Below, piece by piece: positions 3,117-48,400 of a DNA stretch of 64,000 nt. This DNA comes from Argopecten irradians (Eukaryota > Mollusca > Bivalvia > Pectinida > Pectinidae). Under the pieces are notes generated by a model. The model saw only the letters and a program-made list of their open reading frames with translations, had not been told where the DNA came from and did not search any database. The stretch is taken from contig NC_091135.1 in assembly GCF_041381155.1 (NCBI RefSeq), forward strand, positions 53,829,997 through 53,893,996, read 5' to 3'. How positions within the stretch are numbered: the first letter of the stretch is position 1; every line of letters begins with the position of its first letter. A program made the position numbers and the translations under genes.

Positions 3117-4108
3117 ACTGCAGTGGCGTAGGAAGATGAAACGTAATGGGGGGGGGGGGGGGGGGGGGGGCAAAGGTCCTCAATATTTCGTAACACCCCC
3201 CCCCTCGCGCGCCCCGCACCCACAGGAGATATACTTTTTCATGTATAATTACATATAATCCTTGTACACATCTAATAGACAGTGGCTGCGCTACCTGGAA
3301 ATAATGAATACACAAATTAGCGTGCGAGTTTGTGGGGTCTGGGGTATCCCCTGGAAAACATTAGGATTTAGAATGACTGAGATGAGTTTTACAATTATTT
3401 TGATGCTTTTTCGAGCGCCGAAGGCGCGAGATTTTGTTGTTTCGGGGGTCCGGGGGTCTCCCCCGGGAAATATTTTGACAATTTAGAACGGCTGAGATGA
3501 GTTTTACGTTGCATTTTGTTGAATTTGAGAGCGCCGTAGGTGCGAGATTTTGGGTTTTTTTTTGTGGGGCACGGGGGTCTCCCCCTGAGAAAAAATATTA
3601 CGATTTTGTATTTTGATGATTTTAAAGCATTCTTAACACGGCAATTTTTCGATTTAAAGTTACCTGCATTTAGAAATGATAATTGTGATTGTCGTCATAT
3701 AATTATGCAACCCAGCTCGATCTGAACATACCGGATTCACACCATTGGCACATTGTTGTGTAACTCAAAATGATAATGATTGTCTTGCCAAGATATATTG
3801 TCTTGCCAAGATATAAAAAGAAATTCATCTTTTATTATTTTTTGAAAGAGTATAATCCCTTTTTAATGGATGTTTTGAGTCTAGTTCGTGTGTATTGAAT
3901 TTTCATTATTAAAGGTTTGAACATTACGCGCTTGAACATTTTAGGAAAAGCGCTGCGCAGCGGAAAATTTTCAAAAATGAAGTATAAAAATGTGCAAGAG
4001 GACCCTTTTTTTCTTTCAAATGTGCAATTTTAGAAAATTTCAACTCAGCGGGGGGGGGGGGGGGGGCAATTGCCCCCCCCCCCCCCCCGCTTCCTACGCC
4101 CCTGCACT
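3117..4108. mobile_element. Poly-G/poly-C DNA element with CAGTGGCGTAGGAAG termini
   Basis: The left end CAGTGGCGTAGGAAG (3121-3135) is inverted at the right end, CTTCCTACGCCCCTGCACTG (to about 4108). Inside each end lie homopolymers: 23 G at 3148-3170, and at the right 17 G, CAATTG, then 16 C (4050-4088), a near-perfect inverted repeat. The interior has two decayed copies of a GAGCGCCG-GGCGCGAGATTTT motif (3414, 3530), each followed by a GGGGGTCTCCCCC palindrome. No transposase frame, so a non-autonomous DNA transposon of about 1 kb is inferred. Confidence 0.65.
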
Positions 4109-4370: not shown

Positions 4371-6500
4371 TATTACCTATAAACATCTTGGATGGTACTG
4401 ATGCGTTACATGGTCCCGTCGTCAGGTGCATTCTCCTTCCTTGGTTGTTTCGGCGCTGTTCACTACAACCTCCGGAGGTGCACCGACTGGGGTGATCAGG
4501 TCCCAGCCCGGAACCACTCAGCTGTCCGCTAGTATGTAGCTAGCAACACTGTTGTTCTGATAGTTAATGTTCATACACAACTTGATGTTACTGGTGTTGC
4601 CCTCCCACTGTTCCTCTCTTCTTCCACAGCCACATTGATGCCACCTCAGCCTCTCTGCAGAGATGCCCTATCAATCTTCTCTCTATGCCAGTGATGCCGA
4701 TGATCCGCATGGCCCTCCACATAGACTGCCCAACGACACCACGACAACCAACCTCTACAGGATGACACCACATTCTCCATCCTCGTTGCTGGCAGTCTGA
4801 TACCAAATCTTGGTACTTGGCCTGTTTTCGCTCATAGGCGTCGTAAATACGATCCTCTCACGGCACTGTCAGCTCCACCAAGACAGCCTGTTTGGATGAT
4901 GAAGATCAAATTACTAGTCTGGCCTTTGGTTGGTTACTGCTATTTCTGATGGAAAAGTCATCCGGCCATTCAAATCTGCCCTCAACTGCCAATCTTCTGC
5001 TGTACCTAGCACTCCACTGCCTTTATCACTCTGTTCTCCGGCCTTGAAGAAATTGATAAATTTCAAGTCTCCTTTGTCCCTCTTTGGTGTCTTTCTACTG
5101 TTCTCCAGAGTGTCTGCAAGTACAGACAGGACCTTGTCGTGACGCCAGGTGTACCGTCAATCCGCTAGGGCCACTGAGCAAGAGGAAAGGACATGTTCTA
5201 AATTGGCTGGTCTTCCAGAGTTTGCAAGCTGGGTCGTCCGTCATTCCCCACGTTGCCAAGTTAGATGGAGTCGGCAATACGTCTTAGACAGACTTTAGTT
5301 GAAATTGCAGCCTCTGTGGCTCCATGCAACAAAGTCGTTCCATGACAATTTCTTTTGGCGGGCGCCTTCCCAGTTAAGCCAACTTCCTTGCTTCTTCATA
5401 CCAGTGGCTCTAACCATTCGTGACTGTTCTTCCATTGCACGAACGTCCTTCTGAACAAGATGTCTCCTCTCGTCCTCCACTTTTTCCCTGTTGTCACTCC
5501 AAGCCCTTGCCTACCCAAAGCTACTTTTCCAACGATGTCCCCATGTTGAAGTTGTGATTCTGCCTCTTCCATAGTCTTCTTTGCTGACCATTTACGTCCT
5601 GTTCTTATGTTTACTCTTGCCTCTCTAACCTTGGCATCCCGACTGTCCCTCAGCATGAGTAACTGCTTGACCTTTGTCACCTTGAATTCCTCCATCAATG
5701 ATGTGAGAGGAAGTTGCAGATTACTTCCGGAACTGTAAAGTCCTATGCTACTGAAGCTTCGTGGGACAGACAACCATCTCCTAAGGTATCTGCTTGCCAG
5801 CCTTTCCACTGACTCGACAGTTGTCATTGGTACGTCATAGACTAACAGAACTCAGGTAATACTCCATGTTGGTATATCCAGGTCTTGTGTTTTCCTGGTA
5901 AGCCACTTCTGTCGATAGTGTCCATCCATTTCTCAAGCTGCCTCTGCGTGTTGTTAACGTTGTCAGTATAGCTGAGCGAGTCGTCAAGGCATTTCCCCAG
6001 ACACTTAACTGGCTTTTCGGAAACTGTTGGGATGGTTTCATCTGCAGTCTTGAATGTTTCATTCTTGATCTTTCCTTTCTTCAGAACTAGACTTCTGGAC
6101 TTTGATGGTTTAATCTTCATACGGGCCCAAACGATGATGTCTTTAATTTCCTGAAGAGTCCATCTTGCCTCAATGACTGTCTTTGTGCTGATGGTCATGT
6201 CATCCATAAATGCCCTTACTGGGGGTTGTCGAACTCCAGCTCTCATCCATGGTCCCCTACTCATCTTCTCCATTAGGTTCATGGCTGCAGCAAACAGAAT
6301 CACCGACACTGTACAGCCAGTGACTATCCCGACCTCTATACGTTGCCACGAGGTTGTGTAGTCTTTGTGAATCTAAGCTCTAGCTTGTCAAAGTAGCTTT
6401 TCAGCAGATGTCTTGTCTTCTCCGTCACATGATACCGTTCAGTGCAAGTTGGACCAGTTTGTGCGGCATGGAACCGTATGCATTTGCTAGCACTGTGCTG
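4371..6500 (-). pseudogene. Degenerate non-LTR retrotransposon reverse transcriptase
   Basis: Reading the minus strand from about 6500 down, pieces of one long protein appear in shifting frames. An NAYGS-PHKLV region near 6450-6490 fits an RT palm segment. Then come a VSVILFAAAMNLMEKM stretch, the catalytic box AFMDDMTIS (DD codons at 6199-6204; FMDD variant of YADD) and IKPSKSRSLVLKKGK (about 6080-6120). A downstream region contains LPLTSLMEEFKVTK, then SNLATWGMTDDPACK near 5250. The C-terminal part contains VELTVP followed by a stop where the family has Trp (TGA at 4858-4860), then AKYQDLVSDCQQRGW and PVEVGCRGVVGQS. At least two frameshifts and one stop show it is dead. The tail resembles the endonuclease-like C-terminus of a retroelement family I recall from fish, coral and mollusc genomes; the clade is not certain. 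Ends of the element were not found. Confidence 0.8.
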
Positions 6501-8902: not shown

Positions 8903-11900
8903 TCAGTAAGGAGAATAGTATGAGGCCCGTCTGTACCGACTGAAACAGAAAATAAAATCAACAGTAAGAGAAAAGGTGAAAAAATTATCCAAATTCATCA
9001 TGGATATGCTGCATTATAACCTCAGGACTATCACCATCTAATACAATGATTGAATGTATTGCAATAAGAGGTCCAGAGGGCCTGTTTTGCTCACCCGGCT
9101 TGTTAAGCCCAGCATGTTTTGATTAGTTACAGACATTGTTTTAAGCTGTGCACAATTTTCATAAAATTGATGATCACCTCTATGAAAAACTGTATAGATA
9201 TTTAGCAGTTGTAATCAAGATCAGCTGAAAGTTGAAATCAACACTACATTGTAGCTCCTTAGTCTAACATGTAAAAACATCATTTCTTGAATACTCCTGT
9301 ACCAAATATTAATGTCTAACATGTGTTACATAGATATTGTCCTGTTATAAAGTCAATTGTGTATGCATTTATCCAACAGTAAAGTTACATTATTCACAAT
9401 TTCATGACTAGTAGCAAATTAAAGGAAACGCTGACTGACAGACATCATACCATGACACATCTTCATATACCCTTCGGACCAGGTGGGCTAAAACTAGCTC
9501 ATTGTGACAAGATCCATGATAATCTACTACCTAGCGAGTTGTAAATAAAATCTAAGTTTGTCAAGATAAAATGTATATGAGATATATTCAATATCAACAC
9601 ACTAACATCTCAAGAGGTGTAATTTGATTGGTTGGCTAGCTGACTTGGAAAGATAAGTTACTGTAAATCAACATATTTTCATCTGCAATTATATTTCAGT
9701 GGTAAGAAACTGAAACTGATATGAAAATGCTTTGGGCACAGATCAAATAAAATCTATCTGAAAAATTGTGAACGGATAGCATAGAAAAGCAAAATTAAGT
9801 CACATTAAAAACAAGTAGGTTTACCGTACTGCGAATGGAATCTAAAATAGACAACACCATACCATCCAGTGAAAAAAACTAGATAGGTTTTCACTTTTTC
9901 AAATTTTCCACTTTGCCTTCAAAGACTAAAGAACAAACACTTATATGGCCTATAAGATAGAAATTCTATTTGTATTTCCCATTTTGAGTGAATATTGCAA
10001 CTGTTTAATAATGGATATATAAGAGTCATTAGCGAGTCATTAGCGAGTCATACTAAGGATTTCTTTTTGAGGTGATGGTTTCTGTGACTGGGTCAGACTT
10101 GTGTGAAATACAAATGTACAGAAATACTGTGTGTCACATGTGTAAGGTGTCCAGAACATTGCTACAAAGTGGATATTTACGTTATTGCTTCCTAATAAAC
10201 TTCTGACCGGAAGTGATTCTGTAAAACAGTTTGCATAAGAATGGAACCTGCTACCCGTTGCATGATTATAAAAGGCAACTAAATAGGATCTTAATTTTTC
10301 TCTTCGTAACTAACTTTCTTCCTCCTAACATCTCCCTGACTCCACATCTTCCTCCTAACATCTCCCTGACTCCACATCACCTCTAGCCTCAAGTTGAGAG
10401 CTTGTCCCTGTGAGGTAGGCTGTTTAGCTCTCAGCATAAAGAGTGATAAGACGGATTTGTCAGTTGTCAGTTTAATGTAACCAGATGGGCATATTGCTTA
10501 GTACCCAAGGTGGCATGTTACAGAAAGATGACAATATGAAAGAGCATAAGTTACTGCAGCCTCCAAAAACACAGACATTCACACACAGCTAGGGGAGGTT
10601 ACTCTTGACCGACTTATTAATAAACTGAAAATAGTACGTTAAGCCCAATCAACCAACCTTCCAACAAATATACCACTATCATCAATATCTTGTCACTTGT
10701 CTTCTGACCATCCTTTACAAATCAAATTAAGTTAGGCCAAAAAAAAAAAATAAAAATAAAAAAGTCTGTTTAGGGTTACATTGGCGAAAAAACAGAGTAG
10801 ATCACTCTAAAATAATGGCCAGACCTGGAGTCTGAGATCGAAAAACCAACCTATAATTATTTTGTAGAAAAGTGGGAAAAAAATTAGGGTCGGGAATAAA
10901 AAAAATAGGGAACTCTTTACAGACTTTTTTTGACCTTATTAAGACAGTCAAGTAGATCAATTTTCCATGAAATAAGGTAAATCGAAAATCAACATGCAGT
11001 CTCACCCAACAAAGATTCAGGTGTTTACACATGATTCCAGTTTTCGAATCACCCATAGCATTTTCTGTCTATTTCATGAAATAATCTCACTTAAAATCTG
11101 CTATTCTTAAATACCAGTTGTAATGAGCATGACATTTGAAGCAAAAAGATGCAACACTTTCTATTCCTGTTAAATACCAAGATTTCTGATTAAACAGTTT
11201 TAGAGGTTATCTATGTGCCTACAATCAAAGAATACAATGCTGACATCATACAAGATGGTAAATAATAAATGGTAAGCTAAACCTATTACATAAATGAAAT
11301 GTATACAAGTTTCATCAGCTAGTACACTTAAAACCTGTGTTGTTTCTGAAACAGAATTCATTCACACTGATTGATCAAAATAAAACATTAATGTGCTATT
11401 AAACTTGCTTCGTAAATCATATATCAATAAACTTTTTTCTTTAAAGAAAACTGGTCACAATATCTTTTAACAGATAAAGTTTGATGTCATTTTTGGAGAA
11501 TTGCATTGTTATTTAAAAGGAATTGATGAATAAACACTTTAATGTGATCAGAGATAAATTAGACCATAAACCACAAAAGACACTTCAAAAACTTAACAAC
11601 TTTGATGGACTTCGAAAGAAATGTTAGGTATTTAGCAGTTGTATTCAAGATCAGCAGAAAGTTGAAATCAACGCTACATTGTAGCTCCTTAGTCTAACAT
11701 GTAAAGAACATCATTTCTTGAATACTTCTGTACTAATTATAATAAAATATTTATTAAAACTTGGCATTATTTTGCATATACGTACGTGAATCTGCCCCCT
11801 CTTGGTCGTGGGGAATAACCACCATATGGAGACCCTCGGAACCCACCACCTCCTCTCCGAAAACCTCGGCCACGTGGAGGTCGATTTGTTGAACTAATGC

Positions 11901-14900
11901 CCGGACGGTTTGTCCTTTTGACGGTCACCTACAAAACGACAATTTAAAGACAATGTGTCCAAGTTTTACAAAATATAATTTATTAACTGTTGGATGCAAT
12001 TTCCCTTACAATATGATCAATTTTCTACACTAGGTAATGCACAATTAACACAGGAATTCTTGTAAAATGTGTATCTGACCTGCATTGATCATCAGCACTA
12101 AATATAATGTTTAATACATTTTACTTTTCTACCAGATTAATTAACATAAACTATTTATACTTGTCAGCATCTGTTAGTACATACCTTGATCTGTCTGCCT
12201 CTAAAAAGTGAATCGTCTAGGGCTTGTGCAGTGGCTACAGAGTCTTTGTCAGCAAATTCTACATACGCAAATCTGAAAAATAAACAAGACAACTATCTAC
12301 TATAACATTATGATCTAAGATTATCAGAGGAAAAAAGATGGAAAGCATCAAAATCTTCTAGGTAGTAGGATTTTACACCCATTTTAATAAAGTTTTCTCT
12401 CTTTTTATATATATACATATTGTTGATTGTTTTTTATCTCTAAAAACTAAGATAAAATGCACAACAAATTTTCACAAATGTTATGATCAGCCATATTGTA
12501 CCCTTTAGGATGCCCGGTATATTTATCACATAAAATTGTCACTCGGTTCACTGATCCACAGCCATGGAAATGTTGTTCTAGTTCTTCAGCTGTAGCTCCA
12601 TAATCCACCTAAAACACACAATCAAGACTATACTGAGGTTTAGGTGATTCTCAAACAGCAGTTAACGATGGAATATTTGAATATGTTGTGTATAGTATAT
12701 GTATTTAGCAGTTGTATTCAAGATCAGCGAAAATTTGAAATCAACACTACAGTGTAGCTCCTTAGTCTAACATGTAAAAACATCATTTCTTGAATACTTC
12801 TGACAAGTTCTGTACCGATCATTGATTCAGTGTCTGACATGTGTTGCATAGATATTGTTCTGTACATGTTATAAAATCAACGAAAAAGTATTCATTGTGT
12901 ATGTATTTATCCAACAGAAAAGTTGAATTATTCACATGTGATCATGACAATTCAATGACTATATCAAATTACAGGAAATGTTGATGGACAGACAACAGAT
13001 ACAGCATCCATGACACAAGCTCATTGATCCTTCGAATTTGGACCATGTGTTTTAAGCTGTGTACAATTTTATATTGCTTGTTTATTTAGCAGTTGTATTC
13101 AAGATCAGCTGAAAGTTGAAATCAACACTACAGTGTAGCTCTTTAGTCTAACATGTAAAAACATCATTTCTTGAATACTCCTGTACCAAATATTAATGTC
13201 TAACATGTGTTACATAGATACTGTTATAAAGTCAGTGAAAAAATTTGTATCCCCAACCAAAGTAAATTTTGATTTTAGGTTCCATGTGAATAGTAACAAG
13301 CTCTGGGCCTGTATCGCTCACCTGGTTTGTAATGCTACGTAATGTTCTGAATATAAGTTCATTGTTTCTTTTCTAAAGGAATTTGAATATTTACCTCTAA
13401 TTCCCCTATTGGGCCCCACTCTTTCTGCTCCAGGGGGTCAAAGCCAAAATTTATACGAATTCTGTTAACCTCAAGGATGTTTCTGGCCAAATTTGGTTAC
13501 AATCCATGCAGAACTCTAGGACAAGTAGCAATTTTTAGGATTTACCTCTATTTCCCCTATTGGGCCCCGCCCCTCCTGCCCCCAGGGGGGTCAGAGCCAA
13601 AATTTATACAAGTTTTGTTTCCCTTCCCCAAAGGATGTTTGTGGCCAAATTTGGTTACAATCAATGCAGAACTCTAGGACAAGTAGCGATTTATAGGATT
13701 TACCTCTATTTCCCCTATTGGGCCCGCCCCTCCTGCCCCCAGGGGTGTCAGAGCCAAAATTTATACAAGTTTTGTTTCCCTTCCCCAAAGGATGTTTGTG
13801 GCCAAATTTGGTTACAATCCATGCAGAACTCTAGGACAAGTAGCGATTTATAGGATTTACCTCTATTTCCCCTATTGGGCCCGCCCCTCCTACCCCCGGG
13901 GGGGTCAGAGCCAAAATTTATACAAGTTCTGTTCCCCTTCCCCCAAGGATGTTTCTGGCCAAATTTGGTTACAATCCATCCAGAACGCTAGGATAAGTAG
14001 CGATTTATAGGATTTACTTCTATTTCCCCTATTGGGCCTCGCCCCTCCTGCCCCCGGGGGGGTCAGAGACAAAATTTATACAAGTTCTGTTTCCCTTCCC
14101 CCAAGGATGTTTCTGGCCAAATTTGGTTACAATCCATCCAGAACTCTAGGACAAGTAGCGATTTATAGGATTTACCTCTATTATCCCTATTGGGCCCCGC
14201 CCCTTCTGCCCCACAGGGGTCAGGGTCACCATTTATGCAAAATCTGATCCCCTTCCCCTAAGGAAGTTTCTGGCCAAATTTGGTTGCAATCCATGCAGAA
14301 CTCTAGGACAAGTAGTGTTTTATAGGATTTACCTCTATTACCCCTATTGGGCCCCGCCCCTCCTGTCCCAGGGGGGTCAGGGTCACCATTTATGCAAAAT
14401 CTGATCCCCTTCCACTAAGGAAGTTTCTGGCCAAATTTGGTTGCAATCCATGCAGAACTCTAGGACAAGTAGCGATTTATAGGATTTACCTCTATTACCC
14501 CTTTTGGGCCCCGCCCCTCCTGCCCCAGGGGGGTCAGGGTCACCATTTATGCAAAATCTGATCCCCTTCCCCTAAGGAAGTTTCTGGCCTTATTTGGTTG
14601 CAATCCATGCAGAACTCTAGGACAAGTAGCGATTTATAGGATTTACCTCTATTACCCCTATTGGGCCCCACCCCTCCTGCCCCAGGGGGGTCAGGGTCAC
14701 CATTTATGCAAAATCTGATCCCCTTCCCCTAAGGAAGTTTCTGGCCTTATTTGGTTGCAATCCATGCAGAACTCTAGGACAAGTAGCGATTTATAGGATT
14801 TACCTCTATTACCTCTATTGGGCCCCGCCCCTCCTGCCCCAGGGGGGTCAGGGTCACCATTTATACAAAATCTGATCCCCTTCCCCTAACGAAGTTTCTG

Positions 14901-17809
14901 ACCAAATTTGGTTAAAATCCATGCAGAACTCTAGGACAAGTAGCGATTTAAAGGAAATGTTGACGGACGGACGCCGGACGCCGCGCCATGGCAATAGCTC
15001 ACCGGCCCTTCGGGCCAGGTGAGCTAACAATTTGCAAATGATGTAACAAGAATATGATATGTAAATAATATAACCAAACTAAGGAATAAAATGGCATGTT
15101 TGAAGAAAGTCTTGTTTGAAAAAGTGTGCATATAGTTAAACTAGCAAGGCTATGTACATGATGTATTGTTGTAAATATTTCTTTATTCTAGGTTAACGAC
15201 ACTTTCGAGTTTAGTTACAAGTTTTCACTAATATCTAGCAATGGATGAGCCAAAGATTTAAATAGTGGTTTTTTTCACTTACTATTTTCAACAGCCCATG
15301 CCTTTTCAATTGGGAAAATAACTCGGAATTTGGAAAAAAATTGGGAAAAATTTCAGGGGTGTCAAAAAATTTCAAAATCACTTGCCACGGGCAAGTAGAG
15401 TCCAATAATTCACTTGCAATTGCCAAAACTAAATTCCACTTGCTCCCCAAAATTCCATATTTTATCGCAGTACTGTACTTATTAGAAAATTAAAAATCAT
15501 AAACTTTAGAATGATCTAATGCTATTTAACAAGATATTTTCCTTCTATTATTAGAATAAAAATAAAACAATTAATTTGCAGCACTATTTGCATATTTAAA
15601 ACTTTTTTTTTCGTTTCTCTATCCATTTTTTTTTCTAAATTCCTGAATTCCATAAACCAGATTCCAGCTCCATTATTAGATTCCAAGTACTACTTCCTAC
15701 CTTGAACAGATATCGTTTTTACACAGAAAAACTCCTTGTTTATGTCGAAAAAATAATAATTAGACAACAAATTATGTAAGTTAACTCTGGAAACATTGTT
15801 AAATAACTTAAATGCAGTTAACTATTGTTTTTATCGGCTTGAATGTCTGTAAAACGTCTCTGAACTGAAGGTGCACCTAGCGACCTAGTTATGCTCATTC
15901 GATTTTGTTTTCATTTTGTGAAATAAAAATTGTTTCTAATCCCAAATTATTTGTTATTTCACTGCATTTGATCAGTTTTTATTGGGAAATTTGACTTCAA
16001 AATTGGGAAAATAAGGCATTTTTGGCTAGGGGAAACAGCCGAAGTTCGGCTGTAGATTCGACCAAAAACCCCCACTGAAATATGATTAATTAAGATATAT
16101 TTTTTTATTTTAATTAATAATTTAATATATGTTTCACAACAGTAGTAAAGATATGAAAACTGGTTCAAGATCAGCAATAAATTGAAATCATAGCTACAGA
16201 GTAGCTCTTTAGTCTAACATGTGTTAAACATCATCTCTTGAACCAGTTTATAACATCAAAACATGTATAGCCAATACTTGCATTAGGATTTCCAACTACT
16301 GACATGAAACTGACCAAGAACACAATAAAAAGATACCTACATTTCCAACGTATACAGATCGGTTATCAGCTTCAAGTTTTTCTTCAACTGTGGGGAATCC
16401 AGCTGCAACCAAAATGGAAAAAAAAATTCCATCAAAGTAAAATTGTAGAAAAATTTACCTTTATTTTTTTCAAATAAACCCAAAAAGTTGATGCAAGATG
16501 AAAAAAAAAACAATAGGTCAGTTGGCTTAAGGTGAGCAACACAGTCTCACCTATATATATAGACTCTGGACCCATTTGTACATGATAAAAACCCTAAGAC
16601 TAGTTTTTTTAATTAATTTTTGGTCAAAGGTCAAAAGATAAGTCACAGTGGCCTAGTACTGGTATGCGACACGCTGTCTCAATTAGAGGAAGCCATATAT
16701 ATATACTACATCAAACTCCAATCCAAAGCTATACAGTCGAGATAAAGCCCACACAAATGTGCAGATACACAATACAAACCTATCCCTCCCCAAAAAAGTT
16801 CCTCTTGTTACATACAGGCAGTGAAAATCATACGGTTGTTGGAGATTTCTTGGTTATGATAATACATACCGGTAGTAGGTGTTGTTGTTGGTGAGGTGAT
16901 GTTCATTTGTTTTTCTACTTCATTCTGCATTTCTTTCAATTTCTCTGCCTCTTCTTCCATCTCCTTTACACGGGCTTTGATTGCTTCCAGCTCCTAAAAT
17001 AAAGGCATGGATAGGCTTGTGAACTAATCATTTATTTCTGATATGTAATTAATCCGATGAAAACTTTTATGATATTGTTTTGAGATTAAAACCAAAGGAA
17101 CTATTTACTTCATTATTAATATTAGGCCTTTTTATGTTTAAGCGGGCAGCATTAAAACTTGTTCTATAAAATGAAAATAACTTTTTCTGCAACTAGCTTA
17201 TCAATCATGAATCCAATTGTGGACTTATGATACTGTAAGCCAACTTGTGTATTATACACAAAACTTGTCTAATATAGTCCATTTGGAGTATTGATTTGCT
17301 AATGCAAGATGAGTTTTAATTGATTGTTTCTAAACAAATCCATTCTTCTTATTTGAGAATAATGGGTCACTTCCTTTTGTGTCTGTTGTTTATTGTACAT
17401 GTAATGTATTGAATGATAAAGTTGCAGCAGCTGTTTTCCACGAATCAACTCCTTTGTCATTGCAAATCAATGAAGATCGTATGAACAGGTTGTAGGGGAA
17501 GGTTATATTTTTTTCAAACCAGAAGCAGAGCCTGACTGTGGTTGTGCCAAACCTGATGAAAACAAAGACTGGTTCAAATGCCCAATGCCAAACTTTGGGG
17601 GGCTCTTTCAAACCTAATATAATAAGTAACGCGGATTAAAGCAATTAGACTATTTATTATGTACATACCGGATCTTCTACGGCAGACTCATCATGGTTTG
17701 TTGATGTAGTGTCGACGTCATGATCGCCATCTCCTGCTTCGAACTGTTGTGCGTCCGGGTCGAAATCAGTTACAGAATCCTCTGCAAAATCTGGTTCTTT
17801 CTCGGCCAT
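8903..17809 (-). CDS. PABPN1: Polyadenylate-binding protein 2 (nuclear poly(A)-binding protein), complete, 7 coding exons
   Basis: Coding exons in gene order: 17669-17809, 16870-16993, 16341-16402, 12502-12608, 12185-12272, 11786-11928, 8903-8939; all introns GT-AG, total 702 nt, 233 aa. Role (family knowledge): binds growing poly(A) tails in the nucleus, stimulates poly(A) polymerase and sets tail length. Seen: acidic N-terminus (about 1-47), coiled-coil segment [20 protein letters not shown] (48-67) continuing to about 80, one RRM with RNP2 SVYVGN (104-109) and RNP1 KGFAYVEF (144-151), then an Arg/Gly-rich tail. The 12-codon last exon ends YYSPY, matching the vertebrate YSPY terminus, and joins through the donor TTCAC|GTACGT. 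Without that splice the protein would end in VYAK. Start: first ATG (MAEKEPD), with an in-frame 5' exon boundary just upstream. The last intron (2.8 kb) and intron 3 (3.7 kb) carry snoRNA-like genes. Confidence 0.95.
9063..9491 (+). mobile_element. Hairpin-ended element, family B short copy, containing snoRNA-like copy 1
   Basis: Starts AAGAGGTCCAGAGGGCCT then TGCTCACCCGG, and ends CCCTTCGGACCAGGTGGGCTAA, degenerate versions of the family B ends at 13297 and 15027. Instead of the usual tandem core it holds the snoRNA-like sequence 9211-9294 and the downstream segment TGTCTAACATGTGTTACATA. Lies in the last intron of PABPN1. Confidence 0.6.
9211..9294 (-). ncRNA. Box C/D snoRNA-like gene, copy 1
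   Basis: Minus strand, same as PABPN1. The terminal stem GTATTCAAGA/TCTTGATTAC has one mismatch. Box C is AUGAUGU (9277-9283), box D CUGA (9221-9224). The guide next to D, UUUCAACUUUC, is complementary to the conserved 28S tract GAAAGUUGAAA. The inner segment ACAUGUUAGACU pairs, with one mismatch, with 28S AGUCUAACACGU. rRNA sequences are from memory. Confidence 0.7.
9492..11640. other. PABPN1 last intron, unique part
   Basis: AT-rich intron without coding potential. It contains a 33-bp perfect direct duplication (unit starting TTCCTCCTAACATCTCCC) at 10318-10375 and an A-rich tract at 10738-10763. Confidence 0.5.
11641..11725 (-). ncRNA. Box C/D snoRNA-like gene, copy 2
   Basis: Perfect 10-bp terminal stem (GTATTCAAGA/TCTTGAATAC), box C AUGAUGU, box D CUGA at 11651-11654, both guide segments kept. 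Sits about 60 nt below the PABPN1 exon-6 donor, the closest copy to an exon. Confidence 0.75.
12714..12797 (-). ncRNA. Box C/D snoRNA-like gene, copy 3
   Basis: Perfect terminal stem, box C AUGAUGU and box D CUGA are present. The D-adjacent guide carries substitutions (AAATTTTCG before CUGA), while the inner guide ACAUGUUAGACUAAGGAGC is intact. In PABPN1 intron 3. Confidence 0.72.
13095..13178 (-). ncRNA. Box C/D snoRNA-like gene, copy 4
   Basis: Perfect terminal stem, box C, box D and both guides intact (UUUCAACUUUC before box D). About 380 bp from copy 3 in the same intron; flanks of the two copies are also similar, so they arose by duplication of a larger unit. Confidence 0.75.
13297..15027 (+). 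mobile_element. Hairpin-ended tandem-core element, family B long copy
   Basis: Starts CAAGCTCTGGGCCTGTATCG then CTCACCTGG; ends, after GACGGACGGACGCCGGACG, with the hairpin TAGCTCACCGGCCC-TTC-GGGCCAGGTGAGCTAA. The core is about nine direct repeats of ~157 bp (for example starting near 13508, 13665, 13822) with GAACTCTAGGACAAGTAGCG, a GGGCCC-rich block and GGCCAAATTTGGTT. The open frames over it are by-products of the repeat. Lies in PABPN1 intron 3. Confidence 0.85.
15028..16157. other. PABPN1 intron 3, remaining part
   Basis: AT-rich, no coding or repeat structure recognised apart from T- and A-runs. Confidence 0.4.
16158..16248 (-). ncRNA. Box C/D snoRNA-like gene, copy 5 (divergent)
   Basis: The terminal stem is AACTGGTTCAAGA/TCTTGAACCAGTT, 13 perfect pairs. 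It differs from the other copies on both strands, that is, by compensatory change. Box C GAUGAUGU and box D CUGA (16171-16174) are kept, as is the inner guide ACAUGUUAGACU. The D-adjacent guide has drifted (UUUCAAUUUAUUG). Most diverged and possibly oldest copy. Confidence 0.75.
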
Positions 17810-20918: not shown

Positions 20919-23900
20919 TTATTTGTTAGCACCATTTCCATTACTTTTCCTTTTGGAATATTTTTTCAGCTGAGATGATTTCAATTTAAGAAGAAACCTG
21001 TCTCGTCTTGATTTAAAGTTTGAAATAAACCTCCTGCCAGCAGCTTTCACCTTTCTTGTCCTCTGAGCATTAGCAGCCCTCCGCTTAACCCTCGCCTTTG
21101 CCCTACTTTGTTTGAACTTTATCGTGCCCTGGTCCTTAGCATCCTTCACTCCTTCTTTGAACATGCTCCGTAATTTGTCCTCCTGCTTCAGCGGTGGAAT
21201 TTTTGCTGTCTTACGCATATACCTGATGACCATATTTGTTCCTCCAATCGTTACTGTGTACCGGGCTGGTGTAGCCAACTTGTACATCAGATATGCTAGA
21301 GCCACGTTTCCTAAACTCGATGATTTAAATGGATTTGTAATCGTTTCACTGAAGCCTAATCTTTCTAGAAGTGCCACAATGTCCACTCCACTGAAAAATA
21401 ATTTGTTTAAGCATTGGTTGTCATATTTTTGACATGCATTGGTGTATAACATACATTGGGTGTTCTAGCATATCTAGTGGTGTGCGTTAGCAACATTGCA
21501 TTTCAAATATATATTATATGAAATATATATATATATGTAATTTTTTTTTTTTTAATTGAAATGTCATCTCATGAAATAAAGTATAATGTTGTCTAAACAT
21601 GAAACATCATCAAAGATTTCCCTACTGATATTTTTGTTGAACTAATAGATAAGTGGTTAATAATTACCTATCTACTATTCCGTAGAAAGTCCCAAACCAG
21701 ACACATGAAGTTAGCAGATGTACGCCAATGAGAACCTTTCCATGTTCCTTATAAGTTTTCTTAAACCTCTGCACCAACGTCAGCTGTTCTACTGGCTTTT
21801 CAATGCTATCTCTCTTTTCTTCTGGAATGTTTTTAACTTCATCAGATGAATTTTGTTTCTGTTCTTGTCGTGTCTGCACACTAAAGCGCCTGACATGATT
21901 CTGTTTGCTGTTTATCTGCACCCAATCACTGCCACTACTACCAGTAAACAGAGGTATACTTCCCCGACGGACGCTTTTACTGTGAACATCTGTTGAGCAA
22001 AGTCGTGTGGTCACCATGACTGGACATGTTCTTTCTGAAAAGTGAAAAATAAAAGTGAGCTGTTTTTTCATGTCAAAATACAGTATTTTATTTTAGTAAC
22101 TCAACTTGCTAAATAAATTACGGTACACAAATTCATCAGCAATTAAACAAGAGATCCTAGAGGGATCTTGGCGCCCACCAAAGAATGATCTATATCTGAC
22201 AAAGGAAAGATGGATCTTTTCTCTACTTTTTAAACTTTTGCAAACATACTACATATAAAATTTGAGACAGATTGCTTCAGTACCTTTTGAGAAATAGCGG
22301 TAACAAACTTCAACTATCAAAATCCAAGATGACTCCTTGGCGGCCATCTTGTTGATCAATCGGTCCCAAATCACAATATGCACAACTAGGGCCCTAGGGG
22401 AACCTACATATGAAATTTGAGACAGATCCCTTCAGTGCTATCTGAGAAATAGCCATAACAAACTTTAACTATCGAAATCCAAGATGGCGGCCTGGCAGCC
22501 ATCTTGTTCACCGATCGGTCCCAAAATGCAATATGCACAACTAGGTCCCTAGGGGAACCTACATATGAAATTTGAGACAGATCCCTTCAGTACTATCTGA
22601 GAAATAGCCATAACAAACTTTAACTATCGAAATCCAAGATGGCGGCCTGGCAGCCATCTTGTTCACCGATTGGTCCAAAAATGCAATATGCACAACAAGG
22701 GCCCTAGGGGAACCTACATATTAAATTTGAGAAAGATCCCTTTAGTACTTTTTGAGAAATGGTGATATCAAACCTTAACTATCAAAATCCAAGATGGCCG
22801 CCGTTTTTCCTATCAGACTCAAAATCTGTATGGCACAAATAGGGACCAAGGGTAACCTCCATGTGAAGTTTGAACAAAACTCCTTCAGTAGTTCTCAAGA
22901 AATATCGATAACAATTTTCAACTGCCAAAATCAAAGATGGCTGCCTGTCGGCCATCTTGTTTTTCTGATCAGCCGCAAAATCTGTATGGCACAACTAGGG
23001 ACCAAGGGTACCCTCCATGTGAAGTTTGAACAAAATCCCTTCAGTAGTTCTCAAGAAATATCGATAACAAACTTCAACTGCCAAAATCAAAGATGGCTGC
23101 CTGGCGGCCATCTTATTTTTCCGATCAGCCTCAAAATCTGTATGGCACAACTAGGGACCAAGGGTAACCTCCATGTGAAGTTTGAACAAAATCCCTTCAG
23201 TAGTTCTCAAGAAATATCGATAACAAACTTCAACTGCCAAAATCAAAGATGGCTGCCTGGCGGCCATCTTGTTTTTCCGATCAGCCTCAAAATCTGTATG
23301 GCACAACTAGGGACCAAGGGGACCCTCCATGTGAAGTTTCTGCAGAAGATTTTAAGAAATAGTGATAACAACCATTGTTTACGAACGGACGCCGGATGAC
23401 TGACCACGGACGCAGGGCGATTTAAATAGCCAACCATCTGATAGTGGGCTAAAAATTAACTGTTTTGAAAATGAAATCAGCTTAATAAGCTTAAAAAACC
23501 ATATACGCTTGGAACTAAAATCACATAATTTTTTAATAAAAAAAACATAAAATGTATAAAAATAGCATTGATTTGAAAAGTAAATTGGAAAAATGGCTTC
23601 ATTTATAATTTTTTATGTTACTTATATACAATGTACATATTGCATATGATCTTAAACTATGATATGATTACAAAAATAGTAACTAGTTACGGTATTTATC
23701 AATGCTGTATTATTTAATAGCAATAATTCAGTCTGAGGCTTGCTTGTAAGTTTGATAGTGTGTACGTGAGGGAACTAAGTTCAATGCGATTGCGGTAATA
23801 CATTTCGCAATTCCTTTATTTAAAAACAAATCCCTACATAATTCCATCTTCACTTAATTGTAATAGAAAGTAAAATGATCAACTTTAGACCTATTGAATT

Positions 23901-26152: not shown

Positions 26153-26445
26153 AAGCTTATTAGGCTCACATAGGAAAATATTTTTCATTAGAACGAAAAT
26201 GTACTATTTGGCGACTGGCAAATAAAACCACTAAATAATGAAATGGCGGCTGCCAAATAAAACATTTTCGTTCTCCAGAAAAATATTTTCCAAGATAAAT
26301 TAAGTGGCAGCAGCTGCCATATAGTTATCTCTCGGCCGCCAAATAATTTTATTTGGTTTCATATAAGAGAATTTTCTTTATGATATTTTCAAACATTTTA
26401 GTTATCCTAAAAAAAAAAAATCTTATGTGAGCCTAATACGCTTCA
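26153..26445. mobile_element. MITE with GAAGC-TATTAGGCTCACAT termini
   Basis: Left end GAAGCTTATTAGGCTCACAT is inverted at the right end (ATGTGAGCCTAATACGCTTC). A second nested inverted repeat, GGAAAATATTTTTC...GAACGAAAATGT against ACATTTTCGTTC...GAAAAATATTTTCC, spans 26172-26293. Confidence 0.7.
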
Positions 26446-26719: not shown

Positions 26720-33553
<6,834 letters not shown>

Positions 33554-42434: not shown

Positions 42435-45400
42435 TCACATACATACAGACAGACAGACAAGACAGACAGACGGACAGACATACTAAAGAAGAAAGATAAG
42501 AAGGAAGAAGAAAGAAGAGGGAGGAGGTACCGTTACACATACACTATATTATAGTTTAAATATATTATATTAAATAAAAAAATAAATAAATTGTTCTGAA
42601 GAATCGTGCTGATCGGCTATATAAACCGGTTAACCCTAACCAAAGATAAAAAGAAAATTAAAGTAAGTTAGCAGTAGTAAAATACTAAGTGAAAGACTAG
42701 GGTAAAGGTATATACTTAAAGGTCTAATAAAGGTTAACAGCACCTTATTCTTATTTCATTTTATTTGGATCTTTGCAAAACTGCAATCATTTACTCATCT
42801 CTATAGTTTTCTTCCGAGGTAAACTTACTTCTGCTAGATCATACAGTCTGACAGCGTCCTCAAATAGGCCTTTACTCTCTGTGTCCTTGGCCACCAGTTC
42901 TATGATCTTGTGTGTGTCACCATGGAACTTATCTATGGCCCCAGGCTACAAACAAGTAACAGCAAATTCAGCATCAACTGCACCTGGTATTCAGATTTTA
43001 GCTTTTACAAATTTAATTGACTTGTACATTTTACATCATTTCAGCATAGGAAAATTTTCAAACACTACATCGTATCATATTTTACCTAAAAGGTTGCATA
43101 GCTCGATATTTAGGTTGTTAAATATGAAGATGTTTTCTTAATCTCAAACTAGAAAAGGCAGGGGTGCCCTTATAAGGGGAAGCACTCTTTTTAGGTCATA
43201 TATGTATACAGTATGTAGCCAATTCAAACAGGCTTAGTATAGATTTTTCTTCAACACTTCTCAATAGTTAGTAGAGACTTGTACAGCATTATAATCCATG
43301 TGCTCAGGCATCAAACTGTAACCTGTGTACTTACCCGTCGTGTTCCATCCCGCTCAATCTTTCCAAGTAACATTTCAAACTGGAAATCAGGAATAAACAT
43401 TCCATGAGAAATTATCATAAATCATTATATGAAACTGGACAGTTAAGCCGTTCAGGGAGAGACATTTTTGCTGGCATTTTCAGACAAAATTTAGAAATCT
43501 TTAACAGGTAATAACACATGGCAAATTAGAGGAAAAGATGATGGACATATGACAAATATCACATCAAACTCAAAATATTACCAACTTCTTTGACCAGATA
43601 AATGAACTAAAAACAAACATATAAAATAATATTATGGTGATACTCACTTCCCGTGTCTCTAATACCAGTTCACTCACACACGACATAAACAGATTCTCTC
43701 CCTGACTACTCCTCAAGTCCCTGTGACAAAACAAATTGTAGAAAATGATCTTCAAAAGTACAAATAACAATATAACACACACATCAGTAGACTTTGTATA
43801 TAAATATAAATTGTAATGCCAAATATAAAGGAACAAAATATATGGCAATGTATTGAACAAGAGGCCCAGAGGGCCTGTATCGCTCACCTGGTTTTTTTAT
43901 CACAAGACTCTGGCAATTAGAAAAATAAGCAAAATTGACTCCCAAAGTTTAATTTTGAATCACAACCATACAATGATGCTATTGATACCATACAAATATG
44001 CTATCCAATACATAGGTTCAGAGACAAAGTAATTTATATGAAAGTAGTAGCCTAATTGACCTTTTTGACCTCGCATCTATTGCCGTCTAAGGCCCCGGGG
44101 GTCAGCCCTATCATTTGTACAATTTCTAATCCCAACCCTATAAGGATGCTACCATTGCATTATAAGTGCTCTTCCATTCTTAGTTGCAGAGAAGAAGTCG
44201 TTTATATGGAAATAGCTAAATTAACCCCTTTTGACCCCACCCTTCAGGCCCCTGGGGGGTCAGCCCCATCATTTGCAAAATTTTGAATCCAAACCCTATA
44301 AGGATGTAACCATTGCATTATGAGCGTAATCCCATGTTAAGTTGCAGAGAAAAAGTCATTTATATGGAAATTGACCACTTTTGACCCCGCCCCTCAGGCC
44401 CCCGGGGGTCAGCCCTATCATTTGCACAATTTTGAATCCCCACCCTATAAGGATGCTACCATTGCATTATGGGTGCTATACCATGCTTAGTTGCAGAGAA
44501 GAAGTCATTTATATGGAAATAGCCAAATTGACCCCTTTTGACCCCGCCCCTCAGGCCCCCGGGGGGTCAGCCCTATCATTTGCACAATTTTGAATCCCCA
44601 CACTATAAGGATGCTACCATTGTATTATGGGTGCTATACCATGCTTAGTTTCAGAGAAGAAGTCGTTTATATGGAAATAGCCAAATTGGCCCCTTTTGAC
44701 CCCGCCCCTCAGGCCCCCGGGGGGTCAGCCCCATCATTTGCACAATTTGGAATCCCCACCCTATAAGGATGCTACCATTGCATTATGGGTGCTATACCAC
44801 GCTTAGTTGCAGAGTAGAAGTCATTTATATGGAAAAAGCCAAATTGACCCTTTTGACCCCTCCCCTCAGGCCCCCGGGGGGTCAGCCCTATCATTTGCAC
44901 AATTTTGAATCCCCACACTATAAGGATGCTACCATTGTATTATGGGTGCTATCCCATGCTTGGTTTCAGAGAAGAAGTCGTTTATATGGAAATAGCCAAA
45001 TTGACCCCTTTTGGCCCCGCCCCTCAGGCCCCCGGGGGATCAGCCCTATCATTTGTACTATTTTCAGTTAGTAGCCCATAAGGATGCTACCAGTCAAATT
45101 TTGTTGAAATCCGACCAGCGGTTATGGAGAAGAAGTCGATTGTTGACGGACGCCGGACGCCGATCGCTGCGGTATCCCATAAGCTCACCTCGGTCCTTCA
45201 GAACTGGTGAGCTAATAAAACTCCTATCTGATACATTATTATTAAATAGATTGTATATGAATGAACATCAAGGCCTCTTTGTTCAAAAATAAAAACAATT
45301 AAGATGTTCAATCTGCACAGTTAAAGCATACTTATGATGATATTAACCCTAGTAGTGCTGAGGACGCCTTTTGGCTGTTTACTGGTGTCCTGCTATTGAC

Positions 45401-48400
45401 GCCTTTTGGTGTTCTGGCTATGAAGTGGGGTATTCCCCGGTTAATGTGCAAAAAATAATTATATACTGAGATATATTTTCTAAAACGATAAGATACCTAG
45501 TTAATCCCGTATATTTTCTTTCCATTCACATAGAAGTCGTGTCTTATAACATCTGGCATTTTCAGTACGGACCGAGAAATCCCTATACATCGGGAATTTT
45601 TCCGGAAATCGCAACATTTATAGATAGTTACGTCACCGGAAACAGATGTAATGTTTTCAGTGCAGTGTGCGCACAAAACCAATGGCAGGTGCACGTAGTA
45701 CTCTGTGTTACTGATTGGATATATCCACTTATTAACCACTGTCATGGCCGGAGAATAATGCGATTCAAATCTAAAGGTAATTTTTAATCGTTCTGATGCC
45801 TGTAAATTATTGCATGACCGTAAATTAGCAGAAAATTCAAGAAAATTGGGATCGAGTTTTAGGCGCGAGATTGACCTACTTTAATTACGTCACCACTTAC
45901 TGTGTACGATAGATTACTTCTGTATACGGAAGGGTAGATTAGTCTTATTTTATAAGACTGGCTTTCAGTTCTGATTAATAAATGACTAAGACATCAATAT
46001 AAGATATTTTTGTTTGTTTACGAATTGATTACCGTTGTTTGGAAATACCATAACCTGATTTATTATAACAAAACAGTACCGATCATGTGTGTCTGCTTTC
46101 GTCGGTAATGTAAACAAATATGGCGGAGCCGGAGAACCCTGGCGAGCTAGCTAATGTATTGCCGGAATTTCGTCAGATATTTCAAGAAATCTTTCTAGAC
46201 GAAGATAGCGATGAGTTTGAGGGCTTTGATATTGAAGATATCGACAACATTGCTGAGGACGGAACTGGATTTAATGTCGATAATTGGGTTGAAGGCGGAA
46301 AGGAACCGTCTACTTTCACTTTTACCGGTAATGCAGGTATTAACACGGACATCTTGTCGGTACCTGAAGAAGGTAGCTTGTCGTATTTAGACTACTTTGA
46401 ATGTATTATTACTGACAATATAATTCAGAAGATCGTGGATGAGACAAATAGATACGCTGCCACATACACTGAAACACACCCTGACCTCCCAAGTCACTCT
46501 AGGTACAGGAAATGGACAGACACAACGCTAGGGGAAATGAAAGCGTTCATAGCGATGACAATTGCGATGGGACTTGTCCAGCAATTGGATATTCAGGACT
46601 ATTGGTCTGGTAATCCTGTTATAAATACACCATTCTTCAGATCTGTGATGTCTAGAGACAGATTCTTATCATTGTTGAGTGTACTGCATCTAGCAGACAA
46701 CTCTGGGGCAGTTCCTAGAGGGCAAACAGGTTACTCGCCTTTACAGAAATTAGGTGAGCCTTACAAGGATATCCTTTCCAACTTTCAAAGTTGTTATAAC
46801 CCTAACAAGAACATTGCCATCGATGAAGGGATGATACCCTGGAGAGGGAACCTCCATTTCCGTGTATATAGCCCGGACAAACCCATTAAATATGGACTTA
46901 AGGTTTACATGTTGTGTGACTCTGACAATGGCTATTGCAGTCGTATGGAACTATACACTGGTCACGGAGGACAGAACAGTCAGTTTGGAGCAACATACGA
47001 TCTCATCATGCGTCTTGCTGACCCTTTTCTAAACAAAGGCTACCATTTATACATGGACAATTACTTCAGTAGTCCACAATTATTTTATTCCTTATTTCTA
47101 AACGCAACCTTGGCATGTGGAACCTTGCGAAAAAACAGACGTGGTGTACCTCAGGATCTAAAGGATCGGCGTTTGGTTAGAGGCGAGATGTTTGTAATGA
47201 ACAACGACATGCTTGTTGCAGTCAAGTACGCAGACAAAAAGGATGTACATCTTCTCACAACAATACACAAAGGTACAATACATGTATTGAGCACCATAAC
47301 TTCGACAATACTTCGATGAGTTCATATTCATATTGAAAAAATCAAATTGTATAATGGTAAATATCAATGTACTGAATCTGAATATTCTTTAACAGAATGT
47401 TATATCGTGGCAATTTATGTTTCAATGTCACAATTAGTACTGGTATATGTTTAGATTCTTTAACTTCAAAATATTTTTGCTTTCCTATTCGTAATTGTTT
47501 TCATGTTGCCGTAAACAATATGATTATCTATTATAAAATTTGACAAAATGAATTCATGTAAACATTTTGTTACACTATCACATTTTGTGGCTTGAAATGG
47601 ATAGTTTTACTATATAATAATACATTTAGGTGTCATGGAAGACTCTGGTAAAAGAGACCAGGAAGGAATTGAAATTAAAAAACCAGACTGCATTTTGAGC
47701 TACAACAAATATATGGGTGCTGTTGATAGATGTGATCAGATGGTAGCGTATGGCAGCTTTGAAAGAAGGACTTTGAAGTGGTGGAAAAAGGTCTTTTTCC
47801 ATGTGCTCGGCCTAGCTGTGTTAAATTCGTACATTCTGTACAAAACCAGAAGTCAACAACCTGTCCTGCAGAGAGTGTTCAGAAGGGAGTTGGTGAATCA
47901 GTTGGTGACTGCATCAGAAATATCTGGTCCTTCATCTAGAGGCAGGAAGAGATCATCAGCTGAAGTTTTGCGAAGACTCAGTGCTAGACAATTCATCTGC
48001 CACTTGCCAACCTCAGGAAACAGGAATCACGCAAAGCGACGATGTGTCGTTTGTGGGCCTGCTGAAGCAGAGTTGTTCCGAAGCGCTAATCCAGAGGAAC
48101 CAGTACCGAAACGAATGGGACGGGAAACCTGCTTCCAATGCAAACAATGCCAAGTGCCACTCTGCATTGAGCCATGCTTTGAACTTTTTCACACAAAAGC
48201 TGAGTATGTGCTGGCATACAAACGTCTGAAGTCAGTTCTGGAGGAATAAACTTTAAAACTCCATCAAAATTGTATATAGTTCAACTGTGTTATTGTTAAC
48301 AATTTTACTACAAACTGTTACTGCTGACAATTTTACAACAAACTGTTACTGCTGACATTTTTATCACAAGTTTGAACGTTCAATGTATTGGAATGAATCT

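Follow-up and report, generated by a model that had tools for sequence, protein, structure and literature searches.

Guides for one methylation site of 28S ribosomal RNA (rRNA) have been described among the box C/D small nucleolar RNAs (snoRNAs) of distant organisms. A table in PMC3511168 gives a single site for U104 (human Cm1327), snR58 and AtsnoR58Y, and a table in PMC5597630 assigns SNORD104 to human Cm1340, whose old number is 1327. Human SNORD104 has the non-coding host SNHG25 according to PMC8393311, and animal host genes mostly carry one snoRNA per intron according to PMC11028025. In the scallop Argopecten irradians, by comparison, the host would be PABPN1. In 64,000 nucleotides of its genome (hereafter the window: NCBI RefSeq assembly GCF_041381155.1, contig NC_091135.1, forward-strand positions 53,829,997 to 53,893,996), we consider it highly likely that the introns of PABPN1 harbour five paralogous genes for box C/D snoRNAs and that these carry a D' guide for the equivalent of Cm1340. 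The scallop copies are a real member of an ancient kind of snoRNA that is already known. Their host is another matter: an earlier note on this DNA had called PABPN1 an unfamiliar one, and we too found no earlier report of a PABPN1-hosted snoRNA among the titles and abstract openings listed by searches of one open-access library.

Five segments in two PABPN1 introns

The earlier note, which drew on the letters of the window, had placed five copies of one snoRNA on the host sense strand inside PABPN1 introns, and an exact gene model now bears this out. PABPN1 occupies 8903..17809 on the minus strand. Its coding exons 1-4 (17809-17669, 16993-16870, 16402-16341 and 12608-12502) and 5-7 (12272-12185, 11928-11786 and 8939-8903), separated by introns that are all GT-AG, translate exactly to the 233-aa P0001 (polyadenylate-binding protein 2-like, Argopecten irradians). 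All five copies lie on this strand and in two introns only, with copies 5, 4 and 3 in intron 3 (12609..16340, 3732 nt) and copies 2 and 1 in intron 6 (8940..11785, 2846 nt). A placement of copies 1 and 2 outside PABPN1 was considered, in which the exon 6 frame is read on to a stop before copy 2, and was rejected: because P0001 ends otherwise and exon 7 lies at 8939-8903, both copies are intronic.

An ungapped repeat search grouped the five segments together, and each was found where it had been proposed, with a length of 84-85 nt when counted with a 10-bp terminal stem. Copy 1 (9211..9294) has box C at 9277-9283, the D' guide at 9261-9272, the D' box at 9256-9259 and box D at 9221-9224, and its stem (9285-9294 with 9211-9220) contains one mismatch. 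The same four elements, in that order, fall at 11708-11714, 11691-11702, 11686-11689 and 11651-11654 in copy 2 (11641..11725); at 12780-12786, 12764-12775, 12759-12762 and 12724-12727 in copy 3 (12714..12797); and at 13161-13167, 13145-13156, 13140-13143 and 13105-13108 in copy 4 (13095..13178). Copy 5 (16161..16245) has them at 16228-16234, 16211-16222, 16206-16209 and 16171-16174; here a 14-bp stem is possible, which extends the copy to 93 nt (16157-16249).

The alignment supports a common anatomy. Box C (AUGAUGU), box D (CUGA) and the D' guide ACAUGUUAGACU are invariant in all five copies, and the terminal stem described earlier is likewise present throughout, its one mismatch being that of copy 1. 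AUGAUGU agrees with the box C consensus RUGAUGA in six of seven letters, and each copy combines boxes C and D with a terminal stem, as expected of the class. Conservation is highest at the boxes and the D' guide; the spacer and the D-proximal guide are the variable parts. A single A separates the D' guide from the degenerate D' box, which reads AGGA in copies 1-3 and AAGA in copies 4-5, and inspection by eye suggests a putative C' box, GUGUUGA-like in copies 1-4 and weaker in copy 5. Across the terminal stem and a small internal hairpin, pairing is kept in 98.7% of cells of the five sequences, the sole unpaired cell being the stem position of copy 1. The stem has three compensatory pairs (shuffles average 0.6, and sliding gives 0 or 1), a count that comes from five sequences only and in which all three changes are those of copy 5.

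The two guides and their predicted 28S targets

The inner guide GUUAGACU is present in all five copies, and its proposed complementarity to 28S holds in every one. With Mytilus 28S, known from a reverse primer that is the complement of GAGTCTAACATGTGCGCGAGT (PMC3144882 and PMC3625153), copies 1-4 form 12 base pairs (bp) and copy 5 forms 13. None of 20000 mononucleotide shuffles of the copy-5 region reaches 13 bp, measured on one short 28S stretch. The guide pairs with 28S 5'-AGUCUAACAUGU, as the complement of AGUCUAAC with the +5 position on C. By the +5 rule, as given in PMC8522698, the G of UUA-G-ACUA stands opposite the target C of AGU-C-UAAC, within 28S AGUCUAACAUGUG. All five D' guides thus have the rRNA pairing of at least 10 nt, positioned at +5, that is looked for in a box C/D guide. 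This C is presumably the Cm1340 residue, judging by how far it stands from further listed sites along human 28S. On this pairing, the D' guide very probably directs an ancient 28S 2'-O-methylation, the equivalent of Cm1340.

We make a weaker claim for the second guide. As the earlier note had it, the D guide UUUCAACUUUC is intact in copies 1, 2 and 4. Its complementarity to 28S stands for these three, which form 11 bp with oyster 28S (-13.3 to -14.3 kcal/mol), and lapses in copies 3 and 5, where the guide is altered and 6 Watson-Crick bp are left (-7.7 and -6.8 kcal/mol). The oyster sequence comes from a reverse primer that is the complement of CCGTGAGGGAAAGTTGAAAAGAAC (PMC3769282 and PMC4019545). 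No shuffle among 20000 reaches 11 bp, again on one short 28S stretch, and the +5 rule predicts as target the middle A of GGGA-A-AGUUGAAA, in 28S GGGAAAGUUG. In human 28S, the tract GGGAAAG presumably starts at 373, so that the +5 position would be A377. Human A398 and A400, the sites of SNORD26 and SNORD81, were considered as targets and rejected on the same numbering. In the rows of PMC5597630 that were covered, the human 28S list begins at A398, and the tract lies about 20 nt from A398/A400, the nearest listed sites. The earlier expectation that both tracts lie near methylated sites is therefore exact for the inner guide (Cm1340) and off by this distance for the other. Since the predicted A377 falls outside those rows, the D guide would be either lineage-specific or without function.

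Relatives, copy number and duplication

Four known kinds of guide resemble the scallop copies in different ways. SNORD104 (U104; RF00289, clan CL00077) shares the guide core UGUUAGACU, the +5 rule assigns it and the copies to one target C, and its consensus contains GCACGUGUUAGACU; it is one gene in human, as against five copies in the scallop. Drosophila Me28S-Cm788 (RF00539) has AUGUUAGACUAA in common with the copies, and its family name states a methylated C; we found no paper on Drosophila C788 in the open-access literature. snoR64 (RF00267), with the guide CACAUGU-AGACU, is the best full-length Rfam match of copy 5. Finally, yeast snR58 (RF01199) and Arabidopsis snoR58Y are guides of the Cm1340-equivalent site in the PMC3511168 table, yet we saw no sequence match between them and the copies. 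An Rfam search, which the earlier note had proposed as a check, gave a divided answer. The two top matches of copy 5 by score, snoR64 (38.7 bits) and Me28S-Cm788 (24.5 bits), both carry the D' guide, and both remain below their cut-off of 45; snoR64 scores 22.0, 28.8, 26.4 and 27.7 bits on copies 1 to 4.

Several results weigh against the assignment. No Rfam family reaches its curated cut-off on any copy (45 for RF00267 and RF00539, 40 for RF00289). None of the copies is matched by the SNORD104 model, and none of copies 1-4 by RF00539, even when E values up to 10 are admitted. On copies 4 (27.0 versus 27.7 bits) and 1 (23.3 versus 22.0) SNORD72 roughly equals snoR64 in score, and it reaches 23.0 on copy 3, all below cut-off; the SNORD72 family is not known to be linked to the Cm1340 site. 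The D' boxes are degenerate. Four patterns did not find scallop 28S in the assembly; one DNA query returned a single short 84% fragment without either target tract, no 28S was found among viral and prokaryote contigs, and the ribosomal DNA seems to be missing from this assembly or skipped in it. Copies 1-4, moreover, fold no better than shuffled sequences, with z scores of -0.24, -1.63, -0.54 and -1.20. Weak folding relative to shuffles is usual for C/D snoRNAs, and folding lends no support here.

The uneven quality of the copies raises the prospect that just one or two of them, copy 5 above all, are functional and that the others are drifting to pseudogenes, which we regard as a possible account, somewhat less probable than not. 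Copy 5 alone clearly beats its shuffles in folding (z -5.16), tops the Rfam scores and combines the 14-bp stem with a 13-nt guide; the stem mismatch of copy 1 would fit such drift, and copies 1 and 4 were duplicated recently together with their flanks. Against this, box C, the D' guide and box D are intact in five of five copies, although copy 5 shares no more than about 81-85% identity with the other four.

When the copy consensus and copy 5 were each searched against the assembly (845.8 Mb), the five places alone were returned (E up to 0.001 and 10; the best candidates were scored and very common words skipped). A pattern of box C plus guide occurs at nine places in the whole genome, the five known and four others; the reversed-pattern control occurs at seven (3 + 4). 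The four others were judged not to be intact genes. L037 has no CTGA within 80 nt after the guide; in L038, rejected by eye, CTGA comes just 5 nt past the guide; L040, with CTGA about 45 nt on, has by eye a stem of about 3 bp and no D' box; and L039 has no CTGA in 220 nt. At 1500-1527 of L039 (C15:16344608), box C and CACATGTTAGACTAAAG are present, with 17 nt identical to copy 5, and this place may be an old snoRNA relic on another contig. A model built from the five copies gives L039 20.4 bits, L040 18.6 and L038 16.5 at another place, with no match in L037; the five copies themselves receive 104.8-120.2, as must be the case for the sequences it was built from, and elsewhere in the window the scores go up to 17.6. 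The genome search with the RF00267 family, which returned three weak places at 25.1-26.9 bits, is uninformative because it scored 55 of 307652 candidates and missed copy 5. Because the searches returned the five places plus four motif places judged not intact, PABPN1 would be, within the reach of these searches, the one gene of the assembly that houses this guide.

How the copies arose can be read in part from how far their likeness extends. Identity between copies 1 and 4 is 97% along 142 nt that include the flanks, and copy 3 is close within the snoRNA, with indels outside. The likeness of copy 2 to copies 1, 3 and 4 spans 112-160 nt. For copy 5 the match is confined to the 79-nt core with copies 3 and 4 and covers about 100 nt with copy 1; with copy 2 it continues upstream for roughly another 75 nt, the overall identity being 73%. 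A guide-like fragment, TAACACATGTTAGAC, lies upstream of copy 1 (9313..9345, minus strand), and like pieces lie upstream of copy 3 (12831-12863, one base different) and copy 4 (13197-13229); all may be snoRNA relics. Local duplication with the snoRNA retained is the simplest account.

Flanks shared by copies 1, 3 and 4 beyond the snoRNA, in a repeat-rich window of 64 kb, could also be put down to a dispersed or local repeat that resembles a C/D snoRNA by chance, with no RNA genes at all. We think this very improbable: such a repeat would have to account for the five places only that were found in 846 Mb, in a single gene and a single orientation, with its conservation peak on the boxes and the D' guide and with a D' guide that equals that of known guides for one rRNA site.

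Processing, host gene and wider context

If these five genes are used as their anatomy suggests, they would be transcribed as part of PABPN1, released from introns 3 and 6 by splicing, debranching and trimming to the snoRNP (small nucleolar ribonucleoprotein), and packaged with fibrillarin. The D' guide would then direct 2'-O-methylation of the C in AGU-C-UAAC, equivalent to human Cm1340, and the D guide of copies 1, 2 and 4 may add a methylation at the middle A of its own tract. For the five copies, transcription, processing and methylation are what we infer. With two or three copies per intron, the copies could be separated by internal cleavage or be left as snoRNA-ended long RNAs, a choice that is directly testable here, where one intron contains two copies of a single guide and the other contains three.

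The second outcome has a described counterpart in the sno-lncRNAs (snoRNA-ended long non-coding RNAs) of mammals. At least two snoRNAs per intron can give rise to them, according to PMC11028025, and the scallop introns, with three and two, share the several snoRNAs per intron and the outer ones near splice sites. From the ends of the 79-nt cores (16242 in copy 5, 12717 in copy 3, 11722 in copy 2), the nearest splice site in intron 3 is 98 nt away for copy 5 (5'), 489 nt for copy 4 (3') and 108 nt for copy 3 (3'), and in intron 6 it is 63 nt away for copy 2 (5') and 274 nt for copy 1 (3'). Outer copies come this close to both intron ends in about 0.45% of uniform-placement trials for each intron, with thresholds picked after the data were seen. 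Such outer snoRNAs could protect the sequence between them, so that intron 6 would yield a sno-lncRNA of about 2.5 kb and intron 3 one of about 3.5 kb, either in addition to single snoRNAs or in their place. We hold this to be unlikely. The scallop ends, unlike those in mammals, are copies of one snoRNA; the interior of intron 3 holds a third copy, copy 4, together with a tandem array; and growth of the intron middles could explain the end positions. That array, at 13389-14955 between copies 4 and 5, repeats a 157-nt unit about 10 times, and further arrays of 155-158 nt units lie at 22249-23339, 29922-30398, 30396-30879 and 44093-45092.

Other features of the window surround the gene. Two open frames at 20919-22092 (minus strand) match successive profile parts of FAM210A/B domains and probably belong, as exons, to a single gene that lies upstream of PABPN1. 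An IS4-type transposase (DDE_Tnp_1_7) in two frames, the second with a zf-Tnp_2 match, lies at 46114-48249 (plus strand) and is presumably PiggyBac; a reverse transcriptase fragment (RVT_1) lies at 5842-6372 (minus strand). The G-run and C-run at 4046-4093 could form a near-perfect hairpin, and its weak microRNA (miRNA)-family matches are likely compositional. A plant miRNA model scores both strands of a long inverted repeat at 26178-26286, which is perhaps a small transposon.

PABPN1 as host also invites comparison with human cells, in which, according to PMC3499365, the spliced host transcripts SHG60 and SHG104 increase when PABPN1 is depleted. Judging by its name, SHG104 comes from the host of SNORD104. 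The link to the scallop arrangement is suggestive only and may be coincidence. A fuller scheme can be imagined, in which PABPN1 pre-mRNA supplies two sno-lncRNAs as well as the Cm1340-site guide, guide supply is tied to a protein that lowers snoRNA-host transcripts in human cells, SHG104 included, and an A of 28S GGGAAAGUUG, outside the human rows covered, gains a 2'-O-methyl through copies 1, 2 and 4; taken as a whole, we find it distinctly improbable.

Overall, the locus would provide a bivalve guide for an rRNA methylation whose guides PMC3511168 lists in plants, human and yeast. The same paper argues that snoRNAs relocate between broadly expressed hosts, and a PABPN1 host fits its view that such guides move among broadly expressed genes. 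For an animal, both this host and the repetition of one guide inside single introns look unusual.
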